Positions 22,893 through 40,959 of a stretch of 64,000 nucleotides of DNA are shown piece after piece. How positions within the stretch are numbered: position 1 is the stretch's first letter; every line of letters starts with the position of its first letter. A program made the position numbers and the translations under genes. The notes under the pieces are model-generated. The model was not told where the DNA came from and did no database searches. It saw nothing but the letters and a program-made list of their open reading frames with translations. This stretch comes from Mesorhizobium sp. M1E.F.Ca.ET.045.02.1.1 (lineage in GTDB: Bacteria; Pseudomonadota; Alphaproteobacteria; Rhizobiales; Rhizobiaceae): assembly GCF_003952485.1 (NCBI RefSeq), contig NZ_CP034447.1, positions 4,726,501 to 4,790,500 of the forward strand, written 5' to 3'.

Positions 22893-23076
22893 TTCGTGGT
22901 CTCCTCAACATCGCTTTCACGATGCTGGAATCTATACGCACCAGTTTGAAGAGTGTCGTTATCTTCGCATCCAGAAACTTATCTCCGGATGCATTTCTTG
23001 CTGTAATCCAGCGTGATCGCCGATGCGGTCGACAGGCTTGCCAGATACCCGGGATACACCACATGATTGCGAGGGC

Positions 23077-24823: not shown

Positions 24824-25385
24824 CAACTCTTGTCGAGCGGCCGCCCCAAGATGAGGGGTGGGTTCACGAGGCCGAACTCGACGGCTACCGGACGCAGATC
24901 ATCATCGATACGGGCGGCGTGCGTCTCTACAACAAGAACGGCCGTGACTGGACGACAAAATACTGGCCCATCGCGCTGGCGGTCGAACTGCCATGCCGGG
25001 CCGCCATCCTCGACGGCGAGGTGATTGTGTCAGGCGTGCGGGGTGCGCCCGATTCCCCTGGGCTGGAAGCCGCGATCTGGAACGAGCCGAACCGGCTGGT
25101 GTTCGTCGCATTCGACATCCTCCATCTCGACGGTCGCAATCTTGCCTCCTTGCCCTTGCTGCAGCGCAAGCGGGCGCTGCGGCAATTGGTTCAGCCTGGC
25201 GCCGGCAAGATCCAATACTGTGAGCATTTTGAGGGCGACGCGCTGGCGCTCTTTCGCGCCATCGCGAAAATCGGGCTCAATGGCGTCATTTCGAAACGCG
25301 CCGACAGCCGCTACGAGAGCGGACCGTCTAAAACATGGCTGGAGACCGAATATTCGAGAAAGCCGATTTCGAATTGCTAGGGTAG
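24766..25385 (+). pseudogene. Degenerate ATP-dependent DNA ligase (LigD ligase-domain) remnant
   Basis: The product aligns with the adenylation domain of LigD-type ligases: LEFIPPQMPTLVERPP, DGYRTQIIID, LDGEVIV, FDILHLDG and GVISKRADSRYESGPSKTWL. The nucleotidyl-lysine motif, normally E-x-K-x-DGYR, reads EAELDGYR here, so the lysine that takes AMP is Glu. Motif V, normally WLKxK, reads WLETE. The reading stops at 25380; one frame over it continues EKADFELLG and stops at 25385, so there is a frameshift near 25355 and no OB-fold. It cannot be an active ligase. No Ku or LigD partner genes are nearby. Confidence 0.85.
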
Positions 25386-25662: not shown

Positions 25663-27420
25663 TTGCATCCAAAGGCATCCGGCGCCGGCACGGAGAGTGA
25701 GGGGCCTTCCTCCAGCGCTCCAAGTACTGACGAAGCGCTTCTCGCTCACCTCTTGTCGAACACAGCCGATCTCGTGTCGTTCTATGACCGCGACTTCCGC
25801 CTGACGCACTACGCAACCAGACTCAAAGGCGTGTACGGCGGTGTGGTGACGCCGGGCGCCGCCATTTGGGAGGTCTACCCGAGCTTCCTCGATGCGAGGT
25901 GTCGCGACGAATTTCTCCGGGTGTTCCAGGGCGGCTCTCCGACAAGCATCGACTTGCCGCGATCATCGGGCGAGGCACCCCGGTCCGTTTTCGTCTTCGG
26001 CACTGCAAAAGGTGTAGGAATCATCGAATCGAGAGGGCAGGGCGGGCGGAGCGCAGCGGAGGAACAGGAGCATGTAGTTCTGCTCCACCAGGCGACGCAC
26101 GACGTGCTGACCGGCCTGCAGAATCGGCGGCGGTTCGGCGAGCGGCTGCAGCAGGCACTGGCTGCCGTCGGCGGACCAAAGCCGAAAGCCGCGCTGCTGC
26201 AAATCGACCTTGACGATTTCAAAGCGGTCAACGACACGCTCGGCCATGGCGCGGGCGACACGCTTCTTCAACTCGCGGCAGGCCGAATCCGCGACGCGCT
26301 GCAGGAGGGCGAATCCGCGTACCGCTATGCCGGCGATGAGTTCGCCGTCATCCAATTGGCAAAGGAGCAGCCCGCGGAAGCGGAGCGCCTTGCCGGATCG
26401 CTCGTCGATGCGTTCAAGGAGCCGTTCGTCATCAACGACATCCCCGTGTTCGTTGGCTCCAGTATCGGAATTGCGTTCGCGCCGGAGCACGGGACCGATG
26501 GCGAGCAGCTGATGAAAGCCGCCGACATTGCCCTTTATGCAGCCAAGACGGATGGACGCGGCTGCGCTCGAATCTTCAACCGTGCGATGCTGCTCTTGCT
26601 CGAGCAACGCGAGAATCTGAGGCGTAGTCTTCGAACCGCGCTGAAGCGCGGAGAGCTCTATCTGGAATATCAGCCGCTCATTCGGCCTCCTTCGTCGGTG
26701 GTCGGTTTCGAAGCTTTATTGCGGTGGCGGCACCCCGAGATCGGAATCATTCCTCCCAGCGTGTTCATACCGATCGCCGAAGCCGACGGTCTGATGGACG
26801 AGATTGGACGATGGGTGCTCGATGAAGCCTGTCGCCAGGCATTGACGTGGCCTTCCTCGCTGACAGTCGCGGTCAACCTGTCGCCGGCTCAGTTCCTTAG
26901 CGGTTCGCTGACGGACACGGTCGCTGAGATCATCGATGAAGTTGGAATCCGGGCCGAACGACTTGAACTTGAGATAACCGAGACGGTTCTTCTCGAGAAG
27001 ACGATCGACAATATCGATACACTAAATACTCTCAATGTCTTGGGAATACGCATTTCGCTGGACGATTTTGGAACGCATTATTCATCTTTAAGCTACCTGA
27101 AGAATTTCCCCTTCGATACGTTGAAGATAGACCAGTACTTTATTACTGACCTAGAGACTGATTCCAAAGGCCAAACGATCGTGCGATCGATCATAAATCT
27201 GGCGCACGGCCTGGGAATGAGCGTCACTGCCGAGGGCGTCGAGACGTCGGCGCAGGCACGGTGGCTGATCAAGGAAAACTGCGATTGCCTGCAGGGAAAT
27301 TTCCTGGGACAGCCGCTCGGAATCGAGGCAATTGGCGATTTCATCAATCGGGTCCCGCGGAGGGTGGGACGAGCAATGGAGGAACAAACGGGGCGGGCTA
27401 GCGCCTTGCGCCCTATGTGA
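25663..27420 (+). CDS. PAS-like / GGDEF / EAL cyclic-di-GMP enzyme
   Basis: A 585-residue cytoplasmic protein with three parts. Residues about 20-115 resemble a PAS domain. The GGDEF domain (about 140-305) has RYAGDEFAVI, where the first Gly of the motif is Ala, which is often still active. The EAL domain (about 325-565) has FEALLRW, VNLSPAQF, LEITETVLL, DDFGTHYSSLSYL, LKIDQYFI and AEGVET, so the phosphodiesterase residues all appear present. It begins with TTG after GGAGG at 25651-25655. It may make or destroy cyclic di-GMP. It precedes the kinase/STAS/phosphatase and glucan-synthase genes, whose synthase family is controlled by cyclic di-GMP. Confidence 0.88.
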   Translation: MHPKASGAGTESEGPSSSAPSTDEALLAHLLSNTADLVSFYDRDFRLTHYATRLKGVYGGVVTPGAAIWEVYPSFLDARCRDEFLRVFQGGSPTSIDLPRSSGEAPRSVFVFGTAKGVGIIESRGQGGRSAAEEQEHVVLLHQATHDVLTGLQNRRRFGERLQQALAAVGGPKPKAALLQIDLDDFKAVNDTLGHGAGDTLLQLAAGRIRDALQEGESAYRYAGDEFAVIQLAKEQPAEAERLAGSLVDAFKEPFVINDIPVFVGSSIGIAFAPEHGTDGEQLMKAADIALYAAKTDGRGCARIFNRAMLLLLEQRENLRRSLRTALKRGELYLEYQPLIRPPSSVVGFEALLRWRHPEIGIIPPSVFIPIAEADGLMDEIGRWVLDEACRQALTWPSSLTVAVNLSPAQFLSGSLTDTVAEIIDEVGIRAERLELEITETVLLEKTIDNIDTLNTLNVLGIRISLDDFGTHYSSLSYLKNFPFDTLKIDQYFITDLETDSKGQTIVRSIINLAHGLGMSVTAEGVETSAQARWLIKENCDCLQGNFLGQPLGIEAIGDFINRVPRRVGRAMEEQTGRASALRPM

Positions 27421-27530
27421 AGAGAGGAAACGATCGAGGCAGGTACTACGCAATTCTTCGAGTTAGTCCGTGACTTGCGCATCACGGTCGATCGTCTCGG
27501 AGGCCATCGCCCGCCGGGGCACAAATTCTG

Positions 27531-28073
27531 ATGGAACAAGCGAGGTTGCCGATGAGATCTGTTCATCATGATCTGGCTGGCGAGCCGACTTTTGAGCCCA
27601 TGATCCAGATCGACATGGAAATGAAGGCTTTTGTCTCCGCTTGGAGGCATTGCGATTATGTCTCGACCTACATGGCCCGCATGATCAGTCAAACCAGGTC
27701 GGATTCGGTACGGCACTCAAATCTCTTTTCCTCTGCCTTCAACGAATTACTGGAAGTCGTCTTTCGCACGCGCCATGCCGACGGCGAACTGGCATGCAGG
27801 GTGTCTCGCCATGGCGCGACGGATAGGATTGAGCTGACATTTCCTTGCGTGCCGGAGGAGCGCCAATTCTACGAAGAGGCCGTGGCGCAAGTCGCAGGAT
27901 CCGAAGCCAGGGAGCGATACCTTAACTCGGTATCTGGGGATCTCGCGCCCAGCCGGGAGGTCGTACTCCTGGAACTGGCTGTCGACTACGGCGCGACACT
28001 CAGGGTCGAGGAAGCCGACGGCGACGCGATCAAGCTTGTCGTGGATCTTCTGCTTGAGGGCCAACAGAGGTGA
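27531..28073 (+). CDS. Degenerate HATPase-like regulator, paralogue of the gene at 31614
   Basis: A 180-residue protein with the same layout as the product of 31614-32174. Around residue 61, RHSNLFSSAFNELLEVVF aligns with [18 protein letters not shown] of the paralogue, and near the end VVLLELAVDYGATL aligns with [14 protein letters not shown]. The second Asn of the N-box is Val here, and the G-box GLGL is missing, so ATP binding is doubtful. I take it as a member of the slr1658-type (SiaB-like) regulators that has become a binding partner rather than a kinase. It overlaps the next gene by 4 bases (GTGA). Confidence 0.7.
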   Translation: MEQARLPMRSVHHDLAGEPTFEPMIQIDMEMKAFVSAWRHCDYVSTYMARMISQTRSDSVRHSNLFSSAFNELLEVVFRTRHADGELACRVSRHGATDRIELTFPCVPEERQFYEEAVAQVAGSEARERYLNSVSGDLAPSREVVLLELAVDYGATLRVEEADGDAIKLVVDLLLEGQQR

Positions 28074-29248
28074 GCCCCTACGACCTCCTCCCGCGTTTCA
28101 AGGCGCGCTACGACGCGAACAATCAGGAGTTCGCCATATCGGGGGTAGTCCGGCCCCAGGCGATCGATGAGCTTGGGCCCAGCATAGCCTTGCTCCGCGA
28201 TGCGATCGACCGTGTGCGCGGCGTCCTCTACGTCAATGTCAGACGCCTGACGCAGATGAACAACGCGGCGTTTCACGCCTTTTCGAGGATCATCATCGAC
28301 GCCTGCCGCGCTCGACCCGATCTGAGATTCGTCGTCATCACGTCAAGCGTCGTCGGATGGACATCACGAAAATTCGGTCGCTTGAGTAGGATCGAACCGA
28401 ACATCACCGTCGAGGAGTATGACAGTGCATTCTATCCGGGACAGGGCTTCCTAGAGGAAGGCGGGTTCGTTCCAATCCTCCGCACCCAGACAAAGATGAC
28501 CTGGCGCCATGAGCGCGCAATCTTGCCGCGACATGGCATGAGGCCTGGGATCGTTATGGCCGACATCTGCTGTGGGATCGGCGATTTCGCCGTGCTCGTG
28601 CAGAAGGAGTTCCAGCCATCTCGGATCGTCGCCCTAGACCACTCCATATCAAGCCTCGCCTATGCCCGACGCGTGATGCGGGAGTTCGATCTCCGGGGCA
28701 TCGAATATACCTATGGCGATGCATCGGAGATGCTGCTCGACGAAGCGCAGTTCGACTTGGTGACCTGCCGGCATTCCCTTCAAATCTTCAATCGACCTGA
28801 ACTCATCCTCAAGGAACTCTACCGCATATGCAGACCGGGCGGACGGGTCTACATCACCAACGAGAAGAATTCGCATTGCCTCGGCGAGCCGCGCGCCGAA
28901 AGCATTCGTTGGACATACAACGAGGTGGCGAAGCTGTTCGCGCATTTCGAGATGGATGTCGAGCTTGGGCCCAAGAGTCGGCGATACCTGATCGAAGCCG
29001 GATTCGAAGACATACGTGTCGAGACCTTCATGGTCACTAACCTGGACGGCGATCCGCAGGACTTCGCGGATGTCATTGCAGCCTGGGCGGATGTCTATGC
29101 GGGCGAGATGGCGACCAGGCGCGGCGACGGACCGGAATTCGTTGCGCGGTTCCGGCAGGGCTTCCAGGACCATATATTCGCTGCGCTCCACCCTAAGGGT
29201 TACGCGGGTTGGCCGATTTGGGTCGCTTCGGGGCGACGACCGCAATGA
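28070..29248 (+). CDS. STAS-like domain fused to SAM-dependent methyltransferase
   Basis: A 392-residue fusion. Residues 1-125 match the small STAS-like protein encoded at 32174-32530: LYVNVRRLTQMNNAAFHAFSRIIIDACR aligns with [28 protein letters not shown]. The Ser-Ser-Gly of the partner (the phospho-acceptor in such proteins) is Asn-Ala-Ala here (residues 65-67). Residues about 150-390 are a class I methyltransferase with motif I MADICCGIGDFAV, ALDHS, FDLVTCRHSLQIF and ELYRICRPGGRVYI. It starts with GTG overlapping the upstream stop and overlaps the phosphatase start by ATGA, so translation of the set is coupled. Methyl acceptor unknown. Confidence 0.78.
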   Translation: MSPYDLLPRFKARYDANNQEFAISGVVRPQAIDELGPSIALLRDAIDRVRGVLYVNVRRLTQMNNAAFHAFSRIIIDACRARPDLRFVVITSSVVGWTSRKFGRLSRIEPNITVEEYDSAFYPGQGFLEEGGFVPILRTQTKMTWRHERAILPRHGMRPGIVMADICCGIGDFAVLVQKEFQPSRIVALDHSISSLAYARRVMREFDLRGIEYTYGDASEMLLDEAQFDLVTCRHSLQIFNRPELILKELYRICRPGGRVYITNEKNSHCLGEPRAESIRWTYNEVAKLFAHFEMDVELGPKSRRYLIEAGFEDIRVETFMVTNLDGDPQDFADVIAAWADVYAGEMATRRGDGPEFVARFRQGFQDHIFAALHPKGYAGWPIWVASGRRPQ

Positions 29249-31611
29249 AAGCCGACAGCGGGCATACACCGCGCTTCGGCCTGCGCTCCTTTCGGGCGAA
29301 ATTCGTATTGGTCGTTGGCGGCGCGGTGCTGTTCGATCTCCTGATGAGCGGTGGTCTGGCGCTTTGGAACGTTCAAAAGCTGTCGCACGATGCCACATCG
29401 GAAGTCGGCGAGGGCCTGACGACCGCAAACCAGGAATACATTCGTTCCTATGCCGAGTCGACGGCATTGAGTGTCGACCTGCTGCTCGATCGGGTTCATG
29501 GGGACGTCAAGGCGCTGGCCGGCGTGCTGCAGGCCCAGATCGACGATCCGAAGAGGCAGCAACAGGTCGGAGCGACGCTGGCGCGTGAAGCGCCCGGCTC
29601 CGTCAAGATCGTCTACGACGCGCAGGGCGATTGGGCGCAGAATCTGCCGGGCGCGCCTTCCGTGGTAAGCGTCTGGGGCTACCTGCTGGGCGCCGACCAC
29701 AGTCCGCTGCCGGGCGTTCAGCAGGAAATAGAAGACAGTACCGTGATCGATCTCGTCGCGCCGACTCTCATGGCCAGCGGATCGTCCAAACTGCAGATGT
29801 ACTATATTGGTCCAAAAGAACGGCCGATCTTCAGGACGGTGCCGTATACGAACCAGGCACAGACCTTCGACCGACTCTATCCAGGTCACAACAAGGCGGA
29901 GTTCTGGGAGTTCTTCTTTCCGGGAATCTATGGCTCATGGCAGCAGTGGGCGAGAGACCCGGCCTCGCGTCCGGTCCCCGACGATATTACCCAGACGGCG
30001 CCCTACACCGATGCCATCACCGGAAAGCTGATCGTCAGCTTTTTCCACCCGCTGTGGACGCGCGATCATACCGGTATCGCCGGCGTAGCGGGTGCAGATA
30101 TCACGCTCGACCAGCTCGCGGAAGTCGTCGAGCGCGTGAAGATCGCCGAAACCGGGTTCGGCTTCCTCACGATGTCGACTGGCAACGTGGTGGCGATCAA
30201 TCCGTCGAGCCAGGCGATCATCGGCCTGACGTCGTCGAGCGATGCGGGCACGCAGGGCGTCACCGGCCTGGAGAGGTCGCTGCGGGCAAGCACGCAGCCG
30301 GCTATCGCATCGCTGCCGCTCGACCAGAACAATGACGGGGTCATCCAGCACATCATGCTCGACAACAACGGCGAGCGGGTACCCTATATCGTCGTCCTCA
30401 AGAGGTTGAAGCCGATCAATCTGTGGAGTTCGGGGCCTGTCAAGTCCGAGACGATGTCGGTCGGGATCGTCGTTCCCGAACGGGAGATCTATGCGTCCCT
30501 GTTCACCGCGCAGCAGAGTATTTCGCGCGCAACCAACCGTATCCTGCTCTTTCAGATCGCCGCGATCGTCGTTTCGCTTCTGATCGTCTTTGCGGCGGTG
30601 CTCGGAATCTCGAAGCGCATCACCGCGGGCCTCAGGGCGCTCGCCAGTGCCGCGCAGAGGCTCCAGTCCAAAGACTATTCAGTGCGCGTGAGCATTCCAA
30701 CACGCGACGAGGTTGGAGCGGCAGGGATCGCCTTCAACCGCATGGCTGAGCAGATCAGCTTTCACACGGAAAACCTCGAGCAACTCGTCGACGAACGGAC
30801 CAGGGAGCTCGGCGACGCAAATCAGGAGATTTCCGCACTCAACGAAAAGCTGCGGGACGAGAACGTCCGCCTCGGCGCAGAGCTCGCGGTTGCCAGGCAG
30901 ATCCAGATGATGGTCCTGCCGAAACCATTCGAACTCGAAGCGATTCCGGGGCTGGAGATCGCGGCCTACATGCGGCCGGCCGACGAGGTCGGCGGGGACT
31001 ACTACGACGTCCTGCAGAACGGATCACGGGTCAAGATCGGCATCGGCGACGTGACCGGTCATGGTCTCGAGAGCGGCGTGCTGATGCTGATGGTCCAATC
31101 CGTTGCACGCGCCTTGCAGGAGGCCAACGAAGGGGATCCGCACCAGTTTCTGGTTCGGCTGAACAGCGCGATCTTCAAGAACATCGAGCGGACGAACACC
31201 AACAAGCATCTTTCGCTGGCCTTTCTTGACTTTGAGGATGGACGGGTGACGCTTTCCGGCCAGCACGAGGACGTTCTCGTCGTGCGCGCGGATGGGGACG
31301 TCGAACGCATCGATACGCTTGACCTGGGGCTGCCGGTTGGCCTGGAGAATGACATCTCGCAGTTTATCGACACGCGTGACATCGTGTTCGGGAGCGGCGA
31401 CGTGATCGTGTTGCACACCGACGGAGTGACCGAGGCGGAGGACGAAGACAGAAGACTGTTCGGGTTCGATCGGCTCTGCAAGAGCGTGCAAAAGCGTCAC
31501 GGCAGGAGCGCCGAGGAAATCAAGACCGGAATCGTCGAGGATCTGATGACCCATATCGGAATCCAGAAGATCCACGACGACATCACACTCGTGATCATAA
31601 GGCACACATAG
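29245..31611 (+). CDS. Membrane-bound SpoIIE/PP2C phosphatase with periplasmic sensor and HAMP
   Basis: A 788-residue SiaA/RsbU-type protein. It has a membrane helix near residues 15-40, a large periplasmic dCache-like sensor (about 45-430), a second membrane helix (ILLFQIAAIVVSLLIVFAAV), HAMP, a coiled coil (ENLEQLVDERTRELGDANQE) and PP2C. The metal-binding residues are present: VGGDYYDV (about 583), GDVTGHGLESG, HTDGVTEAEDED (about 723) and DDITLVII. Such phosphatases dephosphorylate a small STAS-like partner to release a target. The likely substrate is the 32174-32530 product. Start ATG at 29245 overlaps the methyltransferase stop. Confidence 0.88.
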   Translation: MKADSGHTPRFGLRSFRAKFVLVVGGAVLFDLLMSGGLALWNVQKLSHDATSEVGEGLTTANQEYIRSYAESTALSVDLLLDRVHGDVKALAGVLQAQIDDPKRQQQVGATLAREAPGSVKIVYDAQGDWAQNLPGAPSVVSVWGYLLGADHSPLPGVQQEIEDSTVIDLVAPTLMASGSSKLQMYYIGPKERPIFRTVPYTNQAQTFDRLYPGHNKAEFWEFFFPGIYGSWQQWARDPASRPVPDDITQTAPYTDAITGKLIVSFFHPLWTRDHTGIAGVAGADITLDQLAEVVERVKIAETGFGFLTMSTGNVVAINPSSQAIIGLTSSSDAGTQGVTGLERSLRASTQPAIASLPLDQNNDGVIQHIMLDNNGERVPYIVVLKRLKPINLWSSGPVKSETMSVGIVVPEREIYASLFTAQQSISRATNRILLFQIAAIVVSLLIVFAAVLGISKRITAGLRALASAAQRLQSKDYSVRVSIPTRDEVGAAGIAFNRMAEQISFHTENLEQLVDERTRELGDANQEISALNEKLRDENVRLGAELAVARQIQMMVLPKPFELEAIPGLEIAAYMRPADEVGGDYYDVLQNGSRVKIGIGDVTGHGLESGVLMLMVQSVARALQEANEGDPHQFLVRLNSAIFKNIERTNTNKHLSLAFLDFEDGRVTLSGQHEDVLVVRADGDVERIDTLDLGLPVGLENDISQFIDTRDIVFGSGDVIVLHTDGVTEAEDEDRRLFGFDRLCKSVQKRHGRSAEEIKTGIVEDLMTHIGIQKIHDDITLVIIRHT

Positions 31612-31613
31612 AA

Positions 31614-32174
31614 ATGACAGCGCTGTTCGGTACCCCTGACATTGCAATCGGGATGAAGGAGAGCGTCAGTCGTGTGCGGCTGTTCGACGGGCCTCTCGAC
31701 TTGAGTTGGCGTCATTGTGCTACGACCTCGGACTTCATCGCCGATCTTTTCGCATTGCGCTTCCAGTCGTCCCGCAATGACTACATGGAGGTGCGGCACA
31801 GCATCGGATATCTGACCAACGAACTCATCGAAAATGCCGTCAAGTTTCGCGCACCGGGCGAGATCGTGATCGAGGCGTCGATGGATTCGGAGAGCTTCAA
31901 GCTCAAGGTGTCGAATGACGTCGATGGGGAAAACGCGTCCGAGTTCCAAAGCCTGCTGGCGGACATCACGGTTGGCGACCCCAAGGATCTGCTGATACAG
32001 CGAATTGAAGCGAATGCCGCGAACCCCGACGCGGGGCGCTCCGGGCTCGGATTGCTGACGTTGATGAGCGACTATGGCGCGCGCCTGGCCTGGATATTCA
32101 GCTCCGCCGACGAAAACGATCGGATCTGCCTGGAGACTTATGCCTCCATACCGATCTCGCAAACTCACAACTAA
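31614..32174 (+). CDS. HATPase-like protein kinase of a partner-switching module (slr1658/SiaB-type)
   Basis: A 186-residue soluble protein with a GHKL-type ATP site: N-box [11 protein letters not shown] (68-78) and a G-box-like [18 protein letters not shown] (143-160). It starts 2 bases after the phosphatase stop, and its stop overlaps the STAS gene start (TAATG). In partner-switching systems such a protein phosphorylates the STAS partner, opposing the PP2C phosphatase. It has a degenerate paralogue at 27531. Family naming (slr1658 or SiaB-like) is from memory of related modules and should be checked by profile search. Confidence 0.75.
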
Positions 32175-32530
32175 TGAAACGAAGCCAGATTATGGAAATC
32201 AAGACGGACGACTACCGCGTGTGGACTGAGGGAAGCGATATATTTTTCGACGGTGCAATGCGGCTTGCCAGTTCCGAGGCCGGTGCGCCGATCACGGCTT
32301 TGGCGACCAGTGTTCTTGCCTCAAATCCCGCTTCCATCACGCTCAATTTGAAGGACCTTCACTTTCTCAACTCGTCCGGTATCAACCTGCTGGCGAAATT
32401 TACCATCGAGGTGCGCAAGCATCCCGATGTTCGACTCGTCGTGCGTGGAACGCCCGACATCCCTTGGCAATCGAAATCATTGCCGAATCTGAAGAAGCTG
32501 CATCCCGCCTTGGTGCTTTTGATGGACTAA
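32174..32530 (+). CDS. STAS-like phospho-acceptor protein of the partner-switching module (slr1659-type)
   Basis: A 118-residue protein with a STAS-like fold pattern. [25 protein letters not shown] (55-79) has the strand-loop-helix of anti-sigma-factor antagonists, in which a Ser at the NSSG position (67 or 68) is the phosphorylation site. It is co-translated with the kinase. By analogy with SiaC and SpoIIAA, the unphosphorylated form would bind and activate or sequester a target; here the nearest target is the glucan synthase or a GGDEF protein. A domain with the Ser changed is fused to the methyltransferase at 28070. Confidence 0.75.
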
Positions 32531-32939
32531 CCGAGTTGTCCGTCAGTCAACCTCTTCACCGGGGCTCAGTACGAAGACCCGCTGGCAAGAACGCTCGGCG
32601 ATAGCTACCCCGGCGAGCAGTGCCGCAGGATCGGACCTAAGGGCGCAGGGGGTCTCCTGTTCACCGCAACGACCTGATCGAGATCCGGAATGATCGCCCC
32701 GAGCACCAGAAGGCCCACAGCGGGGCGGCAGCTGCCGCCTTTTCGCGCAAGCTCGCCGATAGGCCACCGACCGTCCGCGAACCCTGTTCGCAAGGGCGTG
32801 TCTGCGTAGGCCAAGCCTCCCTCTGTCGCCAATCCCTCATTGAACGGGAGTGTTATTGTTAACGGTTGCGCGCTAAGGTAGCGATCGGGCGAGGGGTGCC
32901 GTCACCAATGACGACTGTTAGATCGTTTTGTGGGCGCCC
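32531..32939. other. Intergenic region between the partner-switching operon and the glucan synthase genes
   Basis: About 400 bases without a convincing gene. Two short minus-strand frames (32543-32767 and 32605-32832) overlap each other in different frames and look like no family. The last 60 bases before 32940 are AT-richer and may hold the promoter of the bgsB-like gene. No clear terminator was seen after 32530. Confidence 0.6.
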
Positions 32940-34169
32940 ATGTTTTGGAACAAACGCTTTGTCCGAGTTGCAGTAGGGTTCCTGCTGCTGGTTGCCGCAG
33001 TTCTTGCTCTCTTGCCTGGACTCACGGGATATACCAGCCTCGACGGCACCATCAATGCGCGTTTCGCCGAGATCTCGGCCCCGATCGAGGGCACCGTGCT
33101 GCAGACGCCGCCGAAAACCGGCACGCACCTGCCAGAAAATGCAGTACTGCTGACGATCCGGAACGAGCGGGTGAATCGCGCCGTCGAAACATCGCTGGCC
33201 GCGGAACTTGAGACCACGCGGAACAGGGTGCAGGCGCTCGAAAATCAGCGCAGCGAGTTGGAGGCGCTGCGTGCCAGATTGGGCCGACGCTTCGATGCCT
33301 ATAGCAAGGCGATGATCAACAGCATCGAACAGCAGATTGCGATTTCACGTCAACGCATCACGATGCTGGCGGCCCGGCGATCGGCGAGTGCGGCGGAACT
33401 CCAGCGCAATTCCGCGCTGATAGCGAGGGGCGTCGTTTCGCAGAGCAGTGTCGACGAGGCGCAAGCGACAGAGATCGCGGCCTCGGCGGAGGTCGAAGTC
33501 GAACACCTGACCCTGAAACGGCTGGAGCGGCAGCTGGAGGCGATGCGGCAAGGCGTTTTTCTCGAGGACGGGCAAAACGACGTTCCTTACTCGCACCAGC
33601 GGCAGGACGAGTTGGCGATCCAGATCGCCGATCTCGATGCGCGTGCCGCAGAAAGCCGCACCCGTCAGGGCGAGATTTCCAAGCAGCTGGCAGAGGAGGC
33701 GCGACGGGTCGACAGCCTTGAACGCGCGGTCATGACAATGCCCTTCAACGGCGTAATCTGGCGTAACAACGTCGTTGCGGGAGCCAACGTCGTCGCCGGA
33801 AACGAACTGCTGCGCGTGCTCGATTGCCGCGACCTTTTCGTGGATATTCTGGTTCCCGAGGTCGATTTCGACCAGATCTATCCGCGCCGAGCCGCGGACG
33901 TCCGCATCCTCGGGACTGATAATGTCATTGACGGTGAGGTCACTTCGGTTCGTGGCAATTCGGCGGTGGTAGAGGAGCCGACACTCGCGGCGATGCCTCC
34001 AAGCGGCAGAGGGCGCAACGCCCGGATCAGGGTGGCGCTCGCAAACTCGTCTCTCAACACCGACTACAGCAATTTCTGCCATGTCGGGCGGTCGGTCCAG
34101 GTCCGCTTCCACACGCGCAGCTTCACGATGGCCCAGTGGCTGACGAGGCTATGGTTCAGTATCTGGTAG
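32940..34169 (+). CDS. bgsB: HlyD-type membrane-fusion protein, BgsB-like
   Basis: A 409-residue periplasmic adaptor. It has one N-terminal membrane helix (VRVAVGFLLLVAAVLALLPGL), a biotinyl-lipoyl-like half (ISAPIEGTVLQ), a long coiled-coil hairpin (about residues 80-260), the second lipoyl half (MPFNGVIWRNNVVAGANVVAG) and a beta-barrel end. Sinorhizobium mixed-linkage beta-glucan synthesis uses BgsB, a membrane-fusion-like protein next to the GT2 synthase BgsA; the same pair arrangement is seen here. The ATG at 32940 is preferred; a GTG at 32928 is in frame. Its 3' end overlaps the synthase gene. Confidence 0.72.
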   Translation: MFWNKRFVRVAVGFLLLVAAVLALLPGLTGYTSLDGTINARFAEISAPIEGTVLQTPPKTGTHLPENAVLLTIRNERVNRAVETSLAAELETTRNRVQALENQRSELEALRARLGRRFDAYSKAMINSIEQQIAISRQRITMLAARRSASAAELQRNSALIARGVVSQSSVDEAQATEIAASAEVEVEHLTLKRLERQLEAMRQGVFLEDGQNDVPYSHQRQDELAIQIADLDARAAESRTRQGEISKQLAEEARRVDSLERAVMTMPFNGVIWRNNVVAGANVVAGNELLRVLDCRDLFVDILVPEVDFDQIYPRRAADVRILGTDNVIDGEVTSVRGNSAVVEEPTLAAMPPSGRGRNARIRVALANSSLNTDYSNFCHVGRSVQVRFHTRSFTMAQWLTRLWFSIW

Positions 34170-36151
34170 CGCTGGCGCCGACCTTTCTGGTCGCGGCATT
34201 CTTCCTCATCTTCGTCCAAGGCTGGTCGCGGTACCAGACCTGGGCGCGCACCGTCACCTGCGCAATCGTTTTCGCGGTCGCTGTCCGGTATCTGTGGTGG
34301 CGTCTCACCGATACCGTGCTGCCCTATCCCGATGATGGCCTCGATTTCTATTGGGTGTGGTTTCTCTATGGCATCGAACTGCTCGCATTCTTCGACATAA
34401 CGCTCTTCCTCATCATCATGAGCCGGTATGTCGACCGCAGCGCCCAAGCGGATGCGCTCGCAAGCGATTTCTTCCGCCGGCCTCGGCAAGAGCTTCCGAC
34501 GGTCGACGTCTTCATCCCGACCTACAACGAACCATTGGACGTGCTCGAGCGAACCATCATTGGCGCGCTCGGCCTCCACTATCCCGGGGAAAAGCTGAAA
34601 GTATACGTCCTGGACGACCAGCGCCGGGATTGGCTTCGGCGGTTCTGCGAAGAAAAGGGCGCAATCCACGTTACCCGACCGGATAATGCCCACGCCAAGG
34701 CCGGCAACATGAACAACGGCCTTACGGTGAGCGATGGCGAGTTCGTTGCAGTGTTCGACGCGGATTTCGTGGCACACCGGAACTTTCTTCGACGCACACT
34801 GCCTTTCTTCACCGATCCCAGCATCGGCATCGTGCAGACGCCGCAGCATTTCTTCAACAGGGATCCCGTCCAGATCAACCTCGGACTGGAGCGGTCCTGG
34901 CCTGACGAACAGCGCCTTTTTTTCGATGAGATGGCGGCCAGCAGGGATGCCTGGGACATAAGCTTCTGCTGTGGTTCGTGCTCGATCACGCGTCGCGCGG
35001 CACTGGAGGCAATAGGCGGCTTTCCGACGGAATCGATCACCGAGGATCTGCTGACGACCCTGACGATGCTGAACAAGGGATACAAGACGCGCTACCTCAA
35101 CGAGCGGCTTTCCATCGGGCTCGCCGCGGAAAACCTGAAGGGCTATTTCGTGCAGCGCCAACGCTGGTGCCAGGGCGGGATCCAGACGCTTTTCGTGCAC
35201 AACGGACCCCTTCGCGGTCCGGGTCTCAGCCTGTTCCAGCGCATCATGTTCCTGCCTGTGAGCTGGCTCGTGCAGTATTTCGTGCGCCTGGCGATCCTCA
35301 TCGTCCCTGCCATGTATTTCTGGACGGGGTATCCTCCGCTCTTCTTCACGGAAGCAGGCGATCTGGTCAGCCACCAGCTGCCTGTTCTCGTCGCCTATTT
35401 CCTGCTGATGCACTGGATCACGCCGACGCGCTATCTGCCGGTGGTTTCGAGCGCTGTCGGCGCCTTCTCCACCTTCCGGATGCTGCCGACGGTGATTTCG
35501 AGCCTGATCCGGCCATTTGGGCGGCCGTTTCGGGTGACACCCAAGGGAAGCTCGAATGTCGACAACAAATTCGACGGCTACACCTTTGCCTGCCTGGCAA
35601 TATTGATTGCGGCCACTGCGCTCGGACTTGTGATCAACATCATTCCGGAATGGGCGCGCATTCCTCCGGGGGAATTCTCGCCAGTCGCAATCTATTGGGC
35701 ACTGGTGAACCTTGTGGTGCTCACGATTGCGGCGCTGATCTGTTTCGAGAAGACGAATCCCGCCTCCGAGAGCCTCCGTGCGGACGAGCCGGCGCGGTTT
35801 GGCGGCATCGCCGGGCGGGCTGTCAGCCTCACGCTCGGCAAAGCCGTGGTCGAAATCCCCATCGGAACCGACGTCGAGACCGGCAAGGTCGTCGAAGTAG
35901 CGCTGCACGGCGTCGAGCCCTTCGAAGCGGAACTCAGGGTTGTCACCAGGCGCGCACAGGGGAGACGCCGGGATACCAGCCCGTTCAAATATGGCCATCT
36001 CCATTACGATCTGACTGGAGCGGCGCGCGACCAGATGATCGTTAAGCTCTACACCGGCGACTACTCGCAGGATATCGAGGAGCTTCGGCGGCGGACCGTG
36101 GCCGCCGGCCTGTTCTCACGGACGTTCGGGCCGGACTATCAACGCGCATAG
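34136..36151 (+). CDS. bgsA: GT2 processive beta-glucan synthase, BgsA-like (cellulose-synthase superfamily)
   Basis: A 671-residue inner-membrane glycosyltransferase. It has N-terminal membrane helices, the catalytic core with VYVLDDQRRDW (Asp near 159), VFDADF (near 207), TEDLLT (near 300) and QRQRW (near 340), then about four more helices and a cytoplasmic C-terminus (residues about 545-671). That tail is in the PilZ position, but I see no standard RxxxR plus D/NxSxxG motif. BgsA of Sinorhizobium makes a mixed-linkage (1,3)(1,4)-beta-glucan and binds cyclic di-GMP through an atypical tail, which fits. Cellulose or curdlan synthase are alternatives; no bcsB, bcsZ or bcsC is present. GTG 34136 or ATG 34151 are possible starts, both inside the upstream gene. 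Confidence 0.78.
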   Translation: MADEAMVQYLVALAPTFLVAAFFLIFVQGWSRYQTWARTVTCAIVFAVAVRYLWWRLTDTVLPYPDDGLDFYWVWFLYGIELLAFFDITLFLIIMSRYVDRSAQADALASDFFRRPRQELPTVDVFIPTYNEPLDVLERTIIGALGLHYPGEKLKVYVLDDQRRDWLRRFCEEKGAIHVTRPDNAHAKAGNMNNGLTVSDGEFVAVFDADFVAHRNFLRRTLPFFTDPSIGIVQTPQHFFNRDPVQINLGLERSWPDEQRLFFDEMAASRDAWDISFCCGSCSITRRAALEAIGGFPTESITEDLLTTLTMLNKGYKTRYLNERLSIGLAAENLKGYFVQRQRWCQGGIQTLFVHNGPLRGPGLSLFQRIMFLPVSWLVQYFVRLAILIVPAMYFWTGYPPLFFTEAGDLVSHQLPVLVAYFLLMHWITPTRYLPVVSSAVGAFSTFRMLPTVISSLIRPFGRPFRVTPKGSSNVDNKFDGYTFACLAILIAATALGLVINIIPEWARIPPGEFSPVAIYWALVNLVVLTIAALICFEKTNPASESLRADEPARFGGIAGRAVSLTLGKAVVEIPIGTDVETGKVVEVALHGVEPFEAELRVVTRRAQGRRRDTSPFKYGHLHYDLTGAARDQMIVKLYTGDYSQDIEELRRRTVAAGLFSRTFGPDYQRA

Positions 36152-36707
36152 CCAAATCTCTCTGGCAATCATGCTCAGGGCCACGGCCGAGGGAAAAGCC
36201 GACATAGCTCATGCACCGCACGCGTCAGCGTCAGAGGTCGCTCCCGAGCTAACGCTTCTGGAGGGCCATGATCGTTTCGGCGATGCGGCGGCGGCTTCAG
36301 CTCTCCGACGTCAGCTCGTCCCGGACCAGCTGCGAGACTGTTGGCTGGTTTCGCTTCAGGTAGCGTGCGTTGATCGTCGCCTGGACGATTTCCTCCCGCT
36401 TCTCGTGCAGGCGATACAACCCTAGTCAGTTGTACCGGTGTGCCGACGCCGATCGTGCCAATGTCCCGACCTTGCCAAGGCCCGTTGCACCGGACCATCT
36501 GGTGCTTGAGGCGAAATCGTAAGCAAAATATTAGCTATTCTGCAGATAAGATAAGAGAATCCGCAAGGGGCAATAGATCCTTGATCTTGATAGCTCTGTG
36601 GGAAGCAGTTAACTTAGGACCGCTCGCAGATAGACTGAACGTATGCATGGAATATTGGTCTGCATAGGAGCGATCCCGATTGCCGCTGGCGAGCCAAGGG
36701 AGCAACG
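36152..36707. other. Intergenic region with a possible gene remnant on the minus strand
   Basis: No intact gene. On the minus strand, around 36300-36420, one frame reads LYRLHEKREEIVQATINARY and then LKRNQPTVSQLVRDELTSES before a stop, which looks like a protein C-terminus; another frame just upstream (about 36425-36490) reads WQGRDIGTIGVGTPVQLTR. They may be pieces of one decayed gene. About 36500-36680 is AT-rich and probably holds the promoter of the next operon. Confidence 0.4.
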
Positions 36708-37631
36708 ATGGGAGCTGATGCTCCGCATGCATCGGCAATGGTGAATGCGCCGCAGGCGCGGCGCTGGATGCGTTTCCTGTGGGTCCTTGCGCCACCAATG
36801 CTCTTGATCGCTGCCGCAGCGATTGTTCGATTGAGCCTTGGACCGGTCTTGGAGAGGCTGCCGGCAGACTACACCGGTAGCGTCATACTCGAATCGGACA
36901 GCCGCTTTCGGCAGACGCCGGATGCGGCCTTCTCCGCGTTCCACCAGAACGGCCGTCGTGTCGACCAAGTGCTGAGCGCCACCGGCGACGTTGCCATCGT
37001 CCAGAGCCATATCGATTGGACGACCGACACCGGTGAGGTCAACTATCAAACCACGGGCCTTTATGGCGTCGATCGCAAGACCCGCCGGAATGTGGCGGGT
37101 TACGGCGACCTTAGCCGCAGCGGGCAATTCATGTTCCCGCCGCAGCTGAGAGACGTCGCTGATGAGGTCTGGGACCCCTATTATGGCGGTCCACGACACT
37201 TGGCTTTCGATCGCAATGAGGTGGTCGATGGTCTGGCGCTCGCAGTGTACCGCTTCACGATTGCGGACCTCGATGAGACCAAGACCTATGATTATCTTCC
37301 CGACGTACCCGAGCGCTTCGGGGTCGGGACTGACGGCGAAGGCTTTCTGTGGGTCGAGCCCGTCTCAGGTACCCTCGTCGACATGACGGATAATGGCCAC
37401 AGCTTTTTCGTCGATCCAGCCACGGGGAAGTCGATAGGCGACTTTAGTGTCTGGCAGGCTAGATATTCCGCGCAGTCCAAGGCGGACCTGTTCGGCATGG
37501 CGACTTCGGTCCGACGGCGCATATTGGCGGCGAAGATCTGGCTGCCCGCTGCCCTTCTAGCGCTGGCTCTCGCCTGGTTGGGGATCGGTTTGCTGCGGCT
37601 TCGCCGCCGCGCGCGACCGAGTGCGGAATGA
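36708..37631 (+). CDS. DUF3068 (PorA family) membrane-anchored protein
   Basis: A 307-residue protein with one membrane helix at each end (about 20-42 and 275-297) and a large external domain. The segments LPADYTGSVILESDSRFRQT, DWTTDTGEVNYQTTGLYGVDRKTRRNV and VPERFGVGTDGEGFLWVEPVSGTLVDM match DUF3068, a family I know mainly from actinobacteria, where it is linked to the cell envelope. The ATG at 36708 follows GGGAGCAAC. Its stop overlaps the histidine kinase start by 4 bases, so it may be the envelope sensor or input of that operon. Function unknown. Confidence 0.75.
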   Translation: MGADAPHASAMVNAPQARRWMRFLWVLAPPMLLIAAAAIVRLSLGPVLERLPADYTGSVILESDSRFRQTPDAAFSAFHQNGRRVDQVLSATGDVAIVQSHIDWTTDTGEVNYQTTGLYGVDRKTRRNVAGYGDLSRSGQFMFPPQLRDVADEVWDPYYGGPRHLAFDRNEVVDGLALAVYRFTIADLDETKTYDYLPDVPERFGVGTDGEGFLWVEPVSGTLVDMTDNGHSFFVDPATGKSIGDFSVWQARYSAQSKADLFGMATSVRRRILAAKIWLPAALLALALAWLGIGLLRLRRRARPSAE

Positions 37632-39604
37632 GCATGCGACCGCATGCAGATCCGCAAGAGCCCTTGCCGCTCTTGCGGCTTGGGATTTCACAAAAGCTTA
37701 CCCTGCTTTTTGCGCTCTTCGCTGCAATTCTTCTCGGCGCGACCGGATGGCTGGCGTTCAACCAGGGCAGGGCGGCGCTTGAGAGCAGCGTAGTTGCCGA
37801 GGTCCAATCGCGTGCACTGGAAAAACAGGCCGCGATCGGGTCATGGCTTGACGGGCAGCTGAGCGAGCTGCGAGGGCTCAGCGAATCGCCCCACATTGTC
37901 GAAGACTTCAGCAAGCTTGCCGGTCTTCCTGCGGATGCGACGCCTGACGATTGGGCTGACTTCCGCGAAGATCTTGCAGCGCGCACCGGAGGGGGCGAGG
38001 ACTTTGTGGCACTTTTCGTGATGGAACCGAAATCGGGCCGAGTCCTGACGGCAACGGATCCTACCGATCGCGGCCGCCAGGGCGCGGGTGAGCCTTATTT
38101 CACCAATGGCAAGAACCGCGCCGGCCTCTACCTGGTGCCGGACCGTTCAAGGAACCTCACCCTGTTGTCGCCGTTCTTGTCCGCGCCGCTTCGTGCCGGG
38201 AACGGCGCACTTGTTGCCGTTCTGGTCGCCCGTCTCGGAACGGAGAGTTTGGCTGGTACCGTCGATCGACGAGCGGGGCTCCGCGCGACCGACGAAGCAT
38301 ACTTGATCGACACGCATAAGCAGTTTGTCAACAGACCGCGCCTGCTGACCGACGCCGACGCGAGCACCATTACCTCGGACCGAAGCGTGGCGGCCCGGCT
38401 CTGTCTTGACCACAATGATGGGCTGGATCTCTCCAATGACTACCGCGGCGTTCCGGCGATCACCGTTTATCGCTGGATGCCGAAGTTTGGTTTGTGTCTC
38501 ATCACAAAACTCGACAAGGCCGAAGCATTCGCCCCTGTTTATCAACTCGGCCAGAGCCTCGCGATCGCTGGTGGCCTGCTTTTGCTCGTCGCATCGGCAG
38601 CGTCGGGATTGTTGTCGCGAACCATCACCAACCCCATCCGCCGCATCGAGGCGGGCGCCAGACGAGTCGAGGCTGGCGAGCGGGATGTGGTGTTGCCTGA
38701 ATCGTCGAGCGACGAGCTCGGTCGTTTGGCGCGTGCCTTCAATCGAATGACGACCGCGCTCAAAAGCCGGGAATCCGAGCTGCACGCGCATGCTGCCACC
38801 CTGGAGCAGCGTGTCGCGGAAAAGACACGCGAGCTCGACCTGAGGGCAAGCGAGTTGGCCCGGTCGAACATCGAGCTGGAGCGCTTCGCCTATGTCGCCT
38901 CGCATGACTTGCAGGAGCCGCTGCGAATGGTGGCAAGTTATACCCAACTGCTTGGCAGACGTTACAAGGGACGGTTGGATGCCGATGCCGACGAGTTCAT
39001 CCATTTTGCCGTGGACGGCGCTGCGCGGATGCAGGCATTGATCAACGACCTGCTGGTCTACTCACGTGTCAGCACGCAGGGCAGCGCGTTCGAGGCGATC
39101 GATTGCAACCTTGTGGTCGAGCGCGCCTTGACGAACCTCAAGGCGGCGCTGATCGAGAGCGGCGCAATCATCCGAAAGTCCGAACTGCCGAAAATCGATG
39201 CCGATCGATTCCAGTTGGTCCAACTGTTCCAAAACCTGATCGGCAACGCCATCAAGTTCCGTGGCGAGCGCGTCCCGGAAATTGACATCGCGGCGCGGCG
39301 AGACAGCGGGGAATGGTTATTCTCGATCGCGGACAATGGTATCGGGATTGATGCCAAGTACATCGAGCAGCTTTTCGCCGTTTTCAAGCGCTTGCACACA
39401 CGGGCCGAATATCCGGGGAACGGCATCGGTCTCGCCATTTGCAAGAAAGTCGTCGAACGCCACGGCGGCCGAATTTGGGTCGAATCCGAGGTCAACCATG
39501 GCTCGACCTTCTTCTTCACGCTTCCCTGCCGGGATATAGAGGACACTAGCCAAGCACGGAAGTTGGCTCCAACATCTTCGGCACCTCAAATGGATACGGT
39601 ATGA
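37628..39604 (+). CDS. Membrane sensor histidine kinase (Cache-like sensor, HAMP, HisKA, HATPase)
   Basis: A 658-residue kinase. Membrane helix near 22-42, extracytoplasmic Cache-like domain (about 45-305), second helix (about 310-333), HAMP ([20 protein letters not shown]), a coiled coil, HisKA with [19 protein letters not shown], and HATPase with N-box [12 protein letters not shown]1 [11 protein letters not shown] and G2 [11 protein letters not shown]. The phytochrome-type HisKA fits a partner of the Rcp1-like regulator that follows with a 4-base overlap (ATGA). Signal unknown. No receiver domain in the protein itself. Confidence 0.88.
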
Positions 39605-40047
39605 ACATCAACTCGACTGAACGCGCCATCAACATCCTCCTCGTCGAAGACAATCCAGGCGACGCTCGGCTCACGATCGAGGCGTTGCGAGACGCAAAGG
39701 TGCGCAATGAACTCAACGTCGCGCAAGACGGAGTCGAGGCCATGTCAATGCTACGGCGGGAAGGGCGCTACGCCGACGCGCCACGTCCTGACCTGATCCT
39801 GCTTGATCTCAATCTGCCCCGAATGGACGGCCGCCAGGTTCTCGCCGAAATCAAGGCGGACGAAAACTTGCGGCGTATCCCGGTTGCGGTGCTGACCACT
39901 TCGCAGGCCGAGAAAGATATCCTGACCAGCTACAACCTGCATGCCAACTGTTACATCACCAAGCCCGTCGACCTGGATGAATTCGTACGCGTGGTACGGG
40001 GCATCGAGAACTTCTGGCTCTCGATTGTGAAGCTACCGCCGGAGTAA
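39601..40047 (+). CDS. Rcp1-like single-domain response regulator
   Basis: A 148-residue receiver without output domain. Acidic pair in [19 protein letters not shown], phospho-Asp in [18 protein letters not shown], Thr in [10 protein letters not shown] and Lys in [10 protein letters not shown] are all present. Rcp1-like regulators pair with phytochrome-type kinases such as the one encoded directly upstream. It is followed after 6 bases by a REC-GGDEF gene with a similar receiver, so signal may flow kinase to Rcp1-like to REC-GGDEF, or in parallel. Confidence 0.88.
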
Positions 40048-40053
40048 TGCGAG

Positions 40054-40959
40054 TTGAGCGAAAGCCCGTTAAACATACTCCTCGTTGAAGACAATCCCGG
40101 TGATGCTCGGCTGATCCGGGAACTGCTCGCGGAAGGCAGTGGCACGAGCTTCGTGATCTCTGAAGTGAATCGGTTGGCCCATGGCCTCGAGCAGTTCGCC
40201 GACCAGAGCTTCGATCTCGTATTGCTCGATTTGTCTCTCCCCGACAGCACGGGTTTGGACACGCTTCGGCGGTTTCAGGCGACAGCCCCCGACGTCCCGG
40301 TCATCGTGCTGACCGGCCTCAACGACGAAGGATCGGCGATTCAAGCGGTTCGCGACGGCGCTCAGGACTATCTCGTCAAGGGGCAAATCGACGGGCAGCA
40401 AATTGTGCGCGCCATTCGCTATGCCCGGGAGCGCCATAGGATGGTGCTGCAGATAAGGGACTTGTCGCTCGTCGACGACCTTACCGGCCTTCACAACCGC
40501 CGTGGCTTCGCAGTGCTCGCCAGAGAGGTGGTGAAGCGCGCCGCCAGGACCAGAACGGGGTTGGTGGTGACCTTCGTCGATCTGGACGGCATGAAGCACA
40601 TCAACGATTATTTTGGCCATGAGGCGGGTGACCGGGCGTTGATCAGGACCGCGGAGGTTTTGCGTTCCGTCTTCCGGGAGTCCGATGTGATCGCCAGAAT
40701 CGGTGGCGACGAGTTTATCGCGATGGCAGATGGCGTCGACGGGACAGCCGTCGAACTTCTCCGTCGCCGCCTCACGAGCGCCGTGGAAGATCACAATAGC
40801 GAATCGGCGGGGGAGCCGGCGCTGGCCCTCAGTTTGGGCTTCGCCCACCACAATCCAACAACGGAAACGTTGAAATCTATCGACGATTTGATCGCTGAGG
40901 CGGACGAGGCGATGTACGTGGATAAAGATAGCCGTCGGACCAAGGCAGCCCGCCGATAG
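40054..40959 (+). CDS. REC-GGDEF diguanylate cyclase
   Basis: A 301-residue response regulator. The receiver (about 7-125) has [15 protein letters not shown], phospho-Asp in LVLLDLSLPDSTGL and Lys in DYLVKGQIDG. The GGDEF domain has DDLTGLHNRRGF, VDLDGMKHINDYFGHEAGD and the intact RIGGDEFIAM, so it should make cyclic di-GMP. Last gene of the 36708-40959 operon. It starts with TTG. The final 79 bases are copied as a relic at 42919-42993. Its product is a candidate activator of the BgsA-like synthase. Confidence 0.88.
   Translation: MSESPLNILLVEDNPGDARLIRELLAEGSGTSFVISEVNRLAHGLEQFADQSFDLVLLDLSLPDSTGLDTLRRFQATAPDVPVIVLTGLNDEGSAIQAVRDGAQDYLVKGQIDGQQIVRAIRYARERHRMVLQIRDLSLVDDLTGLHNRRGFAVLAREVVKRAARTRTGLVVTFVDLDGMKHINDYFGHEAGDRALIRTAEVLRSVFRESDVIARIGGDEFIAMADGVDGTAVELLRRRLTSAVEDHNSESAGEPALALSLGFAHHNPTTETLKSIDDLIAEADEAMYVDKDSRRTKAARR

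Follow-up and report, generated by a model that had tools for sequence, protein, structure and literature searches.

A conserved rhizobial gene unit combining a putative membrane partner-switching module, a GGDEF-EAL protein and a STAS-methyltransferase fusion, often in the vicinity of CuxR- and BgsA-type genes

Gene content, order and conservation of the unit

Within a 64,000-nucleotide stretch of the Mesorhizobium sp. M1E.F.Ca.ET.045.02.1.1 genome (contig NZ_CP034447.1, positions 4,726,501 to 4,790,500; hereafter the window, whose own numbering is used for all its features), a conserved unit of six genes was distinguished on the plus strand, at positions 25663-32530. The first of them (25663..27420) encodes the GGDEF-EAL protein P0011, a presumable cyclic di-GMP (c-di-GMP) enzyme with a PAS-like N-terminus (Pfam GGDEF 146 bits, EAL 243 bits). 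Then come P0001 (27531..28073), a degenerate slr1658-type protein and presumed pseudokinase (NF047703, 46.7 bits with a cut-off of 100), and P0002 (28070..29248), in which an slr1659-like STAS domain (approximately residues 10-117; 37.7 bits, below the cut-off of the slr1659 model) is fused with a class I S-adenosyl methionine (SAM) methyltransferase (approximately residues 133-392). The remaining three genes encode a membrane dCache-HAMP-SpoIIE/PP2C phosphatase (29245..31611; Pfam SpoIIE 134 bits, HAMP 45.8 bits), an intact slr1658-type GHKL protein, P0004, presumed to be a kinase (31614..32174; NF047703, 184.8 bits), and an intact slr1659-type STAS protein, P0005 (32174..32530; NF047705, 133.5 bits, cut-off 100). 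The five genes at 27531-32530 are joined by overlaps of 1-4 bases or by a 2-base gap. Domains were assigned by Pfam and NCBIfam scans, using the curated cut-offs given for each family. All genes listed in the initial annotation of this region were recovered as open frames on the plus strand, and both scans agreed with its phosphatase-kinase-STAS trio.

The comparison covered 101 relatives, the window genome among them, and a scan of one genome per species yielded 229 loci with relatives of the STAS-methyltransferase fusion, of which the best 80 were analyzed. These 80 named loci represent Mesorhizobium, Phyllobacterium, Aminobacter, Rhizobium, Sinorhizobium/Ensifer, Neorhizobium, Pararhizobium, and Labrys, along with a few Rhizobiales whose names are less specific. 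They were considered with 8 kb flanks, and several end at contig ends, which makes all neighbor counts given below lower bounds; they also share descent, thus the independent associations are fewer than the counts. The complete six-gene set was present in 78 of the 80 named loci, the pseudokinase gene being found in all of them and the GGDEF-EAL, phosphatase, kinase, and STAS genes in 79 each. Locus L222 carries the unit without the GGDEF-EAL gene, and in L189 (Mesorhizobium sp. LNHC252B00), which ends about 3 kb past the fusion gene, the fusion and upstream genes were found and the phosphatase, kinase, and STAS genes were not; the fusion match of L189 is also about 200 bases longer than elsewhere, perhaps due to an insertion. 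The median gaps within the five genes were -4, -4, 3, and 0 bases (79-80 named loci), and the median gap between the GGDEF-EAL and pseudokinase genes was 131 bases. In 78 named loci, the GGDEF-EAL gene precedes the others in the same orientation; in L214 it is inverted. At the pseudokinase position of a Sinorhizobium medicae locus (L226, 8459-8977), the annotation gives a UbiE methyltransferase (U8C40_32575), a label apparently carried over from the neighboring gene.

Among the 101 relatives, the full-length fusion was identified in 18, and a further fragment was found on a cut contig (G042). Proteins of the slr1659 family scoring over the cut-off were detected in 20 of the relatives, i.e., the 18 genomes with the full-length fusion, G042, and G026. 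The surroundings of 19 of these 20 were inspected (the twentieth being the window itself), and the order of the five genes was kept in 17 full cases, each time with the GGDEF-EAL gene upstream. Wider samples comprised 297 genomes of the family (an even draw), 385 of the class, and 398 of the phylum. Further out, slr1659 proteins over the cut-off were rare (4 of the 385 class genomes and 7 of the 398 phylum genomes, the window genome being counted in both). Three genomes from a different family of this class (G175, G386, and G463) nevertheless share the five-gene order, with approximately 60% identity for each of the fusion, phosphatase, and STAS proteins, 45-47% for the kinase, and about 35% for the pseudokinase. 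In that family, a gene divergent from the five-gene unit (L136, 3195-4160; L137, 3613-4578) encodes a 321-residue protein; it was considered as a SiaD-like cyclase and rejected, as the L137 copy is, according to Pfam, a second SpoIIE-type phosphatase. In G026, the slr1658-slr1659 pair (L079, 9464-12395) adjoins a gene for a MinD/ParA-like ATPase, with a Ser/Thr-kinase-like frame, read by eye, on the opposite strand, and no phosphatase homolog was found in the stretch fetched around the pair.

Residue patterns of the two kinase/STAS pairs

Residue conservation was analyzed in alignments of 80-81 rows, built from the named loci and the window. In the phosphatase, five aspartates, which we take to be the metal-site residues, are kept in 80 of 80 rows; its dCache_1 match (27.8 bits, Pfam trace) is below the cut-off of 45. 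All 80 rows of the kinase P0004 retain Glu, Asn, and Ala of the N-box, and 79 retain each of two glycines; the STAS protein P0005 has Asn-Ser-Ser-Gly in 80 of 80. Ser67 of P0005, the first serine of this motif, is the candidate phosphosite, presumably equivalent to that of SpoIIAA.

The initial annotation placed a second, altered kinase/STAS pair directly upstream of the trio. The pair is real; nevertheless, its STAS member has an altered phosphosite and is fused to a methyltransferase, and the partner lacks the kinase motifs. The N-box Asn of this partner is replaced in 81 of 81 rows (Val in 73, Ile in 5, Met in 2, and Thr in 1). Its family profile matches that of the intact kinase (hhalign, 94.4%, E 8.6e-8). 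For the predicted model of the pseudokinase (mean predicted local distance difference test score 87.5), the nearest solved folds were SpoIIAB and one chain from the structure of SiaB bound to SiaC (6kko; Foldseek E 1.7e-4), which is presumably SiaB judging by its length.

In the fusion, the first serine of the STAS site is replaced by Asn in 79 of 81 rows and kept in two, and distant copies have Asn, Ser, or Met. The next position is occupied by Thr (42 rows), Ala (36), Leu (2), or Met (1). The methyltransferase part, identified by domain scans as a UbiE-type SAM methyltransferase, is very strongly conserved, with SAM motif I (Asp, Gly, Gly) and the next Asp invariant in the alignment rows, and the fold together with this motif assigns the fusion to class I SAM methyltransferases. 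The fold list obtained with the whole fusion model was filled by methyltransferases, thus only profiles and secondary structure speak for the STAS fold. Based on the residue patterns over the 80-81 rows, the P0004/P0005 pair appears to be built for phosphotransfer, and the other pair has changed under conservation.

The GGDEF-EAL protein

Both the AGDEF and EAL signatures of the GGDEF-EAL protein are present in 80 of 80 aligned rows. The protein fits, with AGDEF, the cyclase motif used for the S. fredii enzymes (PMC8546604); according to that paper, some of the motif-bearing proteins gave no activity in its assay. P0011 was not matched by a regular expression covering all EAL motifs together, and the single EAL residues are kept in 78-80 of 80 rows. 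No PAS domain was found in this protein by Pfam, and its PAS-like label was given by eye.

Linkage to CuxR-type regulators

Upstream of the unit, outside its core, lies a conserved neighbor (23023..24249, plus strand) encoding P0014, an AraC-type regulator. Like the GGDEF-EAL gene, it falls outside the interval covered by the initial annotation. Residues 46-406 of its 408 align to the protein of PDB entry 5nla (phmmer, E 1.7e-123), which we take to be CuxR, and the homology is thus nearly full-length. P0014 is approximately 54% identical to its homolog on S. meliloti pSymB and can be regarded as a putative c-di-GMP receptor of the CuxR type. CuxR itself is a c-di-GMP-responsive activator of a surface polysaccharide gene cluster of S. 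meliloti (PMC10519070, PMC8546604).

Of the 80 named loci, 56 contain a CuxR homolog at most 8 kb away from the fusion gene, in 52 cases with at least 49% identity and in four (Aminobacter) with 32-38%. Among the 52, the gene is placed upstream on the same strand in 28 loci and downstream on the opposite strand in 24. Of the 18 relatives encoding the full-length fusion, 17 carry a close CuxR homolog (at least 81% identity), and no such copy occurs in the remaining 83, G042 and G026 among them. In the eighteenth (G033), a homolog with 49% identity lies about 6 kb past the unit, and homologs with 45-52% identity occur in five of the 83 genomes. In the 16 relatives with both genes on one contig, the distance from the fusion gene is approximately 3-10 kb. 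The close CuxR matches of G003, G008, and G046 contain in-frame TGA codons (1, 1, and 2, respectively), which may lie ahead of the real start codon or indicate that the genes are broken. On pSymB of S. meliloti 1021, the unit occupies approximately 458.9-465.6 kb, with the cuxR homolog at 468.9-470.0 kb and the bgsBA homologs at 402.4-405.6 kb; among the 60 of 120 fusion-match records listed, the laboratory strain 2011 was represented as well as 1021.

Linkage to the BgsBA glucan synthase

Directly downstream of the unit, two variable neighbors were found on the plus strand, encoding a BgsB-type HlyD membrane-fusion protein (32928..34169, start codon uncertain; Pfam HlyD_3) and P0007 (34136..36151), a BgsA-type mixed-linkage glucan synthase of glycosyltransferase family 2 (GT2). 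The earlier assignment of this pair to BgsBA is well founded, since the proteins are 50% and 65% identical, respectively, to the protein preceding the bgsA homolog on S. meliloti pSymB and to that homolog. P0007 possesses the BgsA core (TED302 and QRQRW340), and the BgsB-like HlyD gene overlaps it upstream. No PilZ domain was found in P0007 by Pfam. R599 and H615, described as the two residues by which BgsA binds c-di-GMP (PMC5567048), are kept in P0007, as are R605, Y633, G635, and R656, and D602 and D608 are not (the published numbers were shifted by 5 on the translation, after which all eight letters agree). The S. meliloti 1021 homolog of P0007, located in a stretch unannotated in the record, was provisionally taken as BgsA on the basis of its homology and BgsB-like neighbor. 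BgsA has been assigned to SM_b20391, and a bgsBA-like pair to R. etli p42e (PMC9495663); the P0007 query matched p42e as well (among the 60 of 143 records listed). At approximately 401.0-401.5 kb of pSymB (L225), the bgsB homolog has a divergently oriented neighbor that encodes a GGDEF domain.

In 15 of the 80 named loci (14 genomes), the bgsBA genes are no more than 8 kb from the gene for the fusion. They lie upstream on the opposite strand in ten loci, all of Sinorhizobium/Ensifer, upstream on the same strand in two (one Mesorhizobium and one Rhizobium), downstream on the same strand in two (again one Mesorhizobium and one Rhizobium), and downstream on the opposite strand in one (Ensifer aridi). 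The latter species has the unit twice, each copy with a bgsA gene of its own nearby, and the two arrangements differ. In Rhizobium sp. J15 (L219), the end of bgsA is about 160 bases ahead of the GGDEF-EAL frame, on the same strand. BgsA was present (threshold E 1e-180) in 24 of the 78 named unit-bearing genomes (7/49 + 17/29), 14 of which have both in one locus, and within the family sample (n = 297) the fusion is encoded in 31 genomes and BgsA in 15, of which all except G1032, i.e., 14, also have the fusion (Fisher p 1e-14, uncorrected for relatedness). In these 14 genomes of the family sample, the two are separated by 4-5 kb in four cases and by approximately 25, 55, and 63 kb in three, and are placed on different contigs in seven. 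The proposed association of the trio with the synthase therefore withstands the co-occurrence check set for it in the initial annotation, since the genes are near each other in 15 of 80 loci and 14 of 15 BgsA genomes carry the unit; it is not an obligatory one. CuxR is a more frequent receptor neighbor of the unit than BgsA; both were found in 12 of the 80 named loci and either of them in 59.

Adjacency of bgsBA to the unit was, among the 101 relatives, specific to the window genome. The stretches fetched from the relatives (two of which, L061 and L063, end within 1.5 kb past the unit) contained no HlyD-GT2 pair next to it, and in G033 the pair is about 26 kb away. The view of bgsBA as an accidental neighbor, drawn from this comparison, turned out to be too local and was overturned by the named loci and the family sample.

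Other genes of the window

Between the glucan synthase and sensor kinase genes, a PorA/PgfA-like protein absent from the initial annotation is encoded (36708-37631), with a Pfam PF11271 match of 62.9 bits over the cut-off and an NCBIfam PgfA match below it. The PorA/PgfA family is associated with actinobacterial envelopes. Further downstream, on the plus strand, domain scans identified a HAMP-HisKA-HATPase sensor kinase (37628-39604), a single receiver domain, i.e., an Rcp1-like regulator (39601-40047), and a response regulator-GGDEF protein (40054-40959). These three were included in the island by the initial annotation and were rejected here as conserved parts of the module, because the response regulator-GGDEF protein was matched in only two of the 101 relatives (E 1e-60); the conserved c-di-GMP enzyme is instead the upstream GGDEF-EAL protein. 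In the second of these genomes (G018), the gene is on the same contig as CuxR, and a loose link to the module is possible. The same query was matched in 10 of the 80 named loci, where eight matches were the GGDEF-EAL gene itself and two (L147 and L169) other genes, with 31% identity. Locus L145, with bgsBA placed as in the window, ends before the place of the three genes.

Upstream of the unit, positions 24766-25380 encode a 204-residue protein with an ATP-dependent DNA ligase domain. This ligase family was found in 16 loci, including the window, mostly downstream of the unit, at a median distance of approximately 1.2 kb from the kinase gene start, and the flanks of the unit in the window have therefore been rearranged. 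The G+C content is 0.59-0.61 at positions 20001-44000 and 0.62-0.65 elsewhere in the window, thus the former stretch may be an acquired or rearranged region.

Comparison with known switch systems

The likeness of the trio to the SiaABCD system of Pseudomonas aeruginosa, already pointed out for this locus, is borne out by the 78 of 80 named loci in which a phosphatase, a kinase, and a STAS protein are encoded together with a c-di-GMP enzyme. In both systems, a membrane PP2C phosphatase, a GHKL-type kinase, a small phospho-switch protein, and a c-di-GMP enzyme are gathered in one cluster, with predicted functions in the rhizobial case, to which the above-mentioned match of the pseudokinase model to the SiaB-SiaC complex may be added. 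In SiaABCD, unphosphorylated SiaC binds and activates the cyclase SiaD (PMC7278518). The rhizobial unit differs in having an slr1659-type STAS protein, a GGDEF-EAL enzyme, a second, altered pair, and a methyltransferase. According to the profile searches, P0004 and P0005 belong to the slr1658/slr1659 superfamily (NF047703, NF047705), and the Sia models scored below their cut-offs, i.e., SiaA (NF038263; phosphatase 129.1 bits, cut-off 700), SiaB (NF038262; P0004 16.3 bits, cut-off 85), and SiaD (NF038266, cut-off 290; P0011 96.6 and P0010 117.6 bits). SiaC/DUF1987 models were not among the Pfam and NCBIfam matches of P0005 at E 0.1, their presence in the libraries being unchecked. The degenerate members, P0001 and the STAS-methyltransferase fusion, set the unit apart from the superfamily, for which one paper with the names of both slr1658 and slr1659 was located.

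In another class of the phylum, locus L139 (4485-9140) contains in a row genes for a GGDEF enzyme, slr1658, slr1659, a periplasmic binding-protein-like protein, and SpoIIE; its GGDEF enzyme scored 147.7 bits with the SiaD model, below the cut-off of 290. This arrangement suggests that the slr1658/slr1659 pair met c-di-GMP enzymes more than once.

A STAS switch is also the basis of the SypE/SypA system of Vibrio fischeri, in which the unphosphorylated STAS protein promotes the symbiosis biofilm (PMC8256260). In contrast to the rhizobial unit, SypE combines the kinase and phosphatase roles in one protein, and the review cited (PMC8256260) does not contain the word methyltransferase. Compared with the BgsBA/CuxR genes of S. 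meliloti 1021, where the unit is 53 kb from the bgsA homolog and approximately 3 kb from the cuxR homolog, in the window both genes flank the unit. In the open-licence literature, which leaves the original glucan and CuxR papers outside the search, we found no account of the unit, of a STAS-methyltransferase fusion with a pseudokinase, or of the function of the S. meliloti copy. Switches of this type seem not to have been built in this manner before, with a pseudokinase as partner of a switch domain that is fused to a methyltransferase.

Proposed mechanism and alternative explanations

We give roughly even chances to a model in which the membrane partner-switching module controls the co-encoded c-di-GMP enzyme and, by this means, c-di-GMP-dependent surface polysaccharides. 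The dCache-HAMP-SpoIIE phosphatase would sense an outside signal and dephosphorylate the slr1659-type STAS protein at Ser67, which the intact slr1658-type kinase would phosphorylate. The unphosphorylated STAS protein would then engage the GGDEF-EAL protein and change c-di-GMP locally, in the manner of SiaC acting on SiaD; this contact is favored because of the SiaABCD layout and the occurrence of an slr1658/slr1659 pair near a GGDEF gene in L139. CuxR and, where present, BgsA would read the c-di-GMP signal and turn on the polysaccharide genes and glucan synthesis. The change may go in either direction, the GGDEF-EAL protein fitting the cyclase motif and having phosphodiesterases as its best matches. 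Finally, the pseudokinase would probably bind the STAS-methyltransferase and be exchanged between the fusion and the free STAS protein, which would make the methyltransferase a second output through partner competition; this is the least supported step.

An extension of this model, to which we assign a rather low probability, assumes a two-branch switch driven by one phosphatase signal. A phosphorylation branch would set c-di-GMP for CuxR and BgsA, and a phosphorylation-blind branch would use the pseudokinase and the STAS-methyltransferase as decoy and effector, with methylation and c-di-GMP coupled by partner competition, the whole providing a natural input for the cryptic rhizobial polysaccharides. 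The Thr found next to the lost serine in 42 of 81 rows, or the serine kept in two, might leave some fusions phosphorylated, and this possible site in part of the family made us lower our estimate for the two-branch switch slightly.

Several further observations weigh against the proposed control of polysaccharides by c-di-GMP. The neighborhood could reflect a shared polysaccharide region rather than direct control. In all three loci of the other family, no GGDEF-EAL homolog was found near the five-gene core, and BgsA gave no match in 54 of the 78 named unit-bearing genomes; both count against a fixed pathway from the switch to glucan. The best NCBIfam matches of the GGDEF-EAL protein, all below the cut-off, are phosphodiesterases, and the protein could mainly degrade c-di-GMP.

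The loci of the other family, where approximately 60% identity is retained by the fusion as well as by the phosphatase and STAS proteins, together with the strength of methyltransferase conservation, speak for a somewhat improbable alternative, namely that the methyltransferase is the true output. The switch would then free or hold a STAS-methyltransferase acting on a lipid, quinone, sugar, or protein, with the GGDEF-EAL protein as a separate input or a mere neighbor, which does not predict the presence of the latter in 79 of the 80 named loci or the clustering of c-di-GMP receptors around the unit. It is unlikely, in our opinion, that the unit serves as a general switch for stress or surface responses, with another protein elsewhere as its target, and that CuxR, BgsA, and the GGDEF-EAL protein are only neighbors co-inherited in a region rich in polysaccharide genes. 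Such a switch would suit the many unit-bearing genomes without BgsA and the UDP-sugar and unrelated genes also found nearby in Sinorhizobium. Against it stand the six combinations of side, strand, and genus in which BgsA occurs near the unit and the restriction of close CuxR homologs to relatives with the full-length fusion, the latter not being decisive, as close relatives can inherit linkage. Direct control of BgsA or BgsB by the phosphatase trio, without c-di-GMP, is suggested by the heading of the initial annotation and could be proposed from their adjacency in the window; it seems to us very improbable, given that most of the named unit-bearing genomes lack BgsA, that the bgsBA genes of R. 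etli p42e have no such unit within 8 kb, and that the glucan is produced by R. etli when c-di-GMP is high (PMC9495663).

Significance for rhizobial surface polysaccharides

Two polymers of S. meliloti, the mixed-linkage glucan and the polysaccharide that depends on CuxR, are cryptic and were found in strains with artificially raised c-di-GMP; an S. meliloti mutant lacking 16 of 17 GGDEF genes is reported to show no salient phenotype except lower acid tolerance (PMC8546604). The rhizobial unit is a candidate for the natural trigger of these polymers, because it places a c-di-GMP enzyme beside an apparent sensor phosphatase, approximately 3 kb from the cuxR homolog in S. meliloti 1021 and directly beside bgsBA in other species. 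If the two-branch switch were true, methylation and c-di-GMP signaling would be coupled in these bacteria via shared partners.

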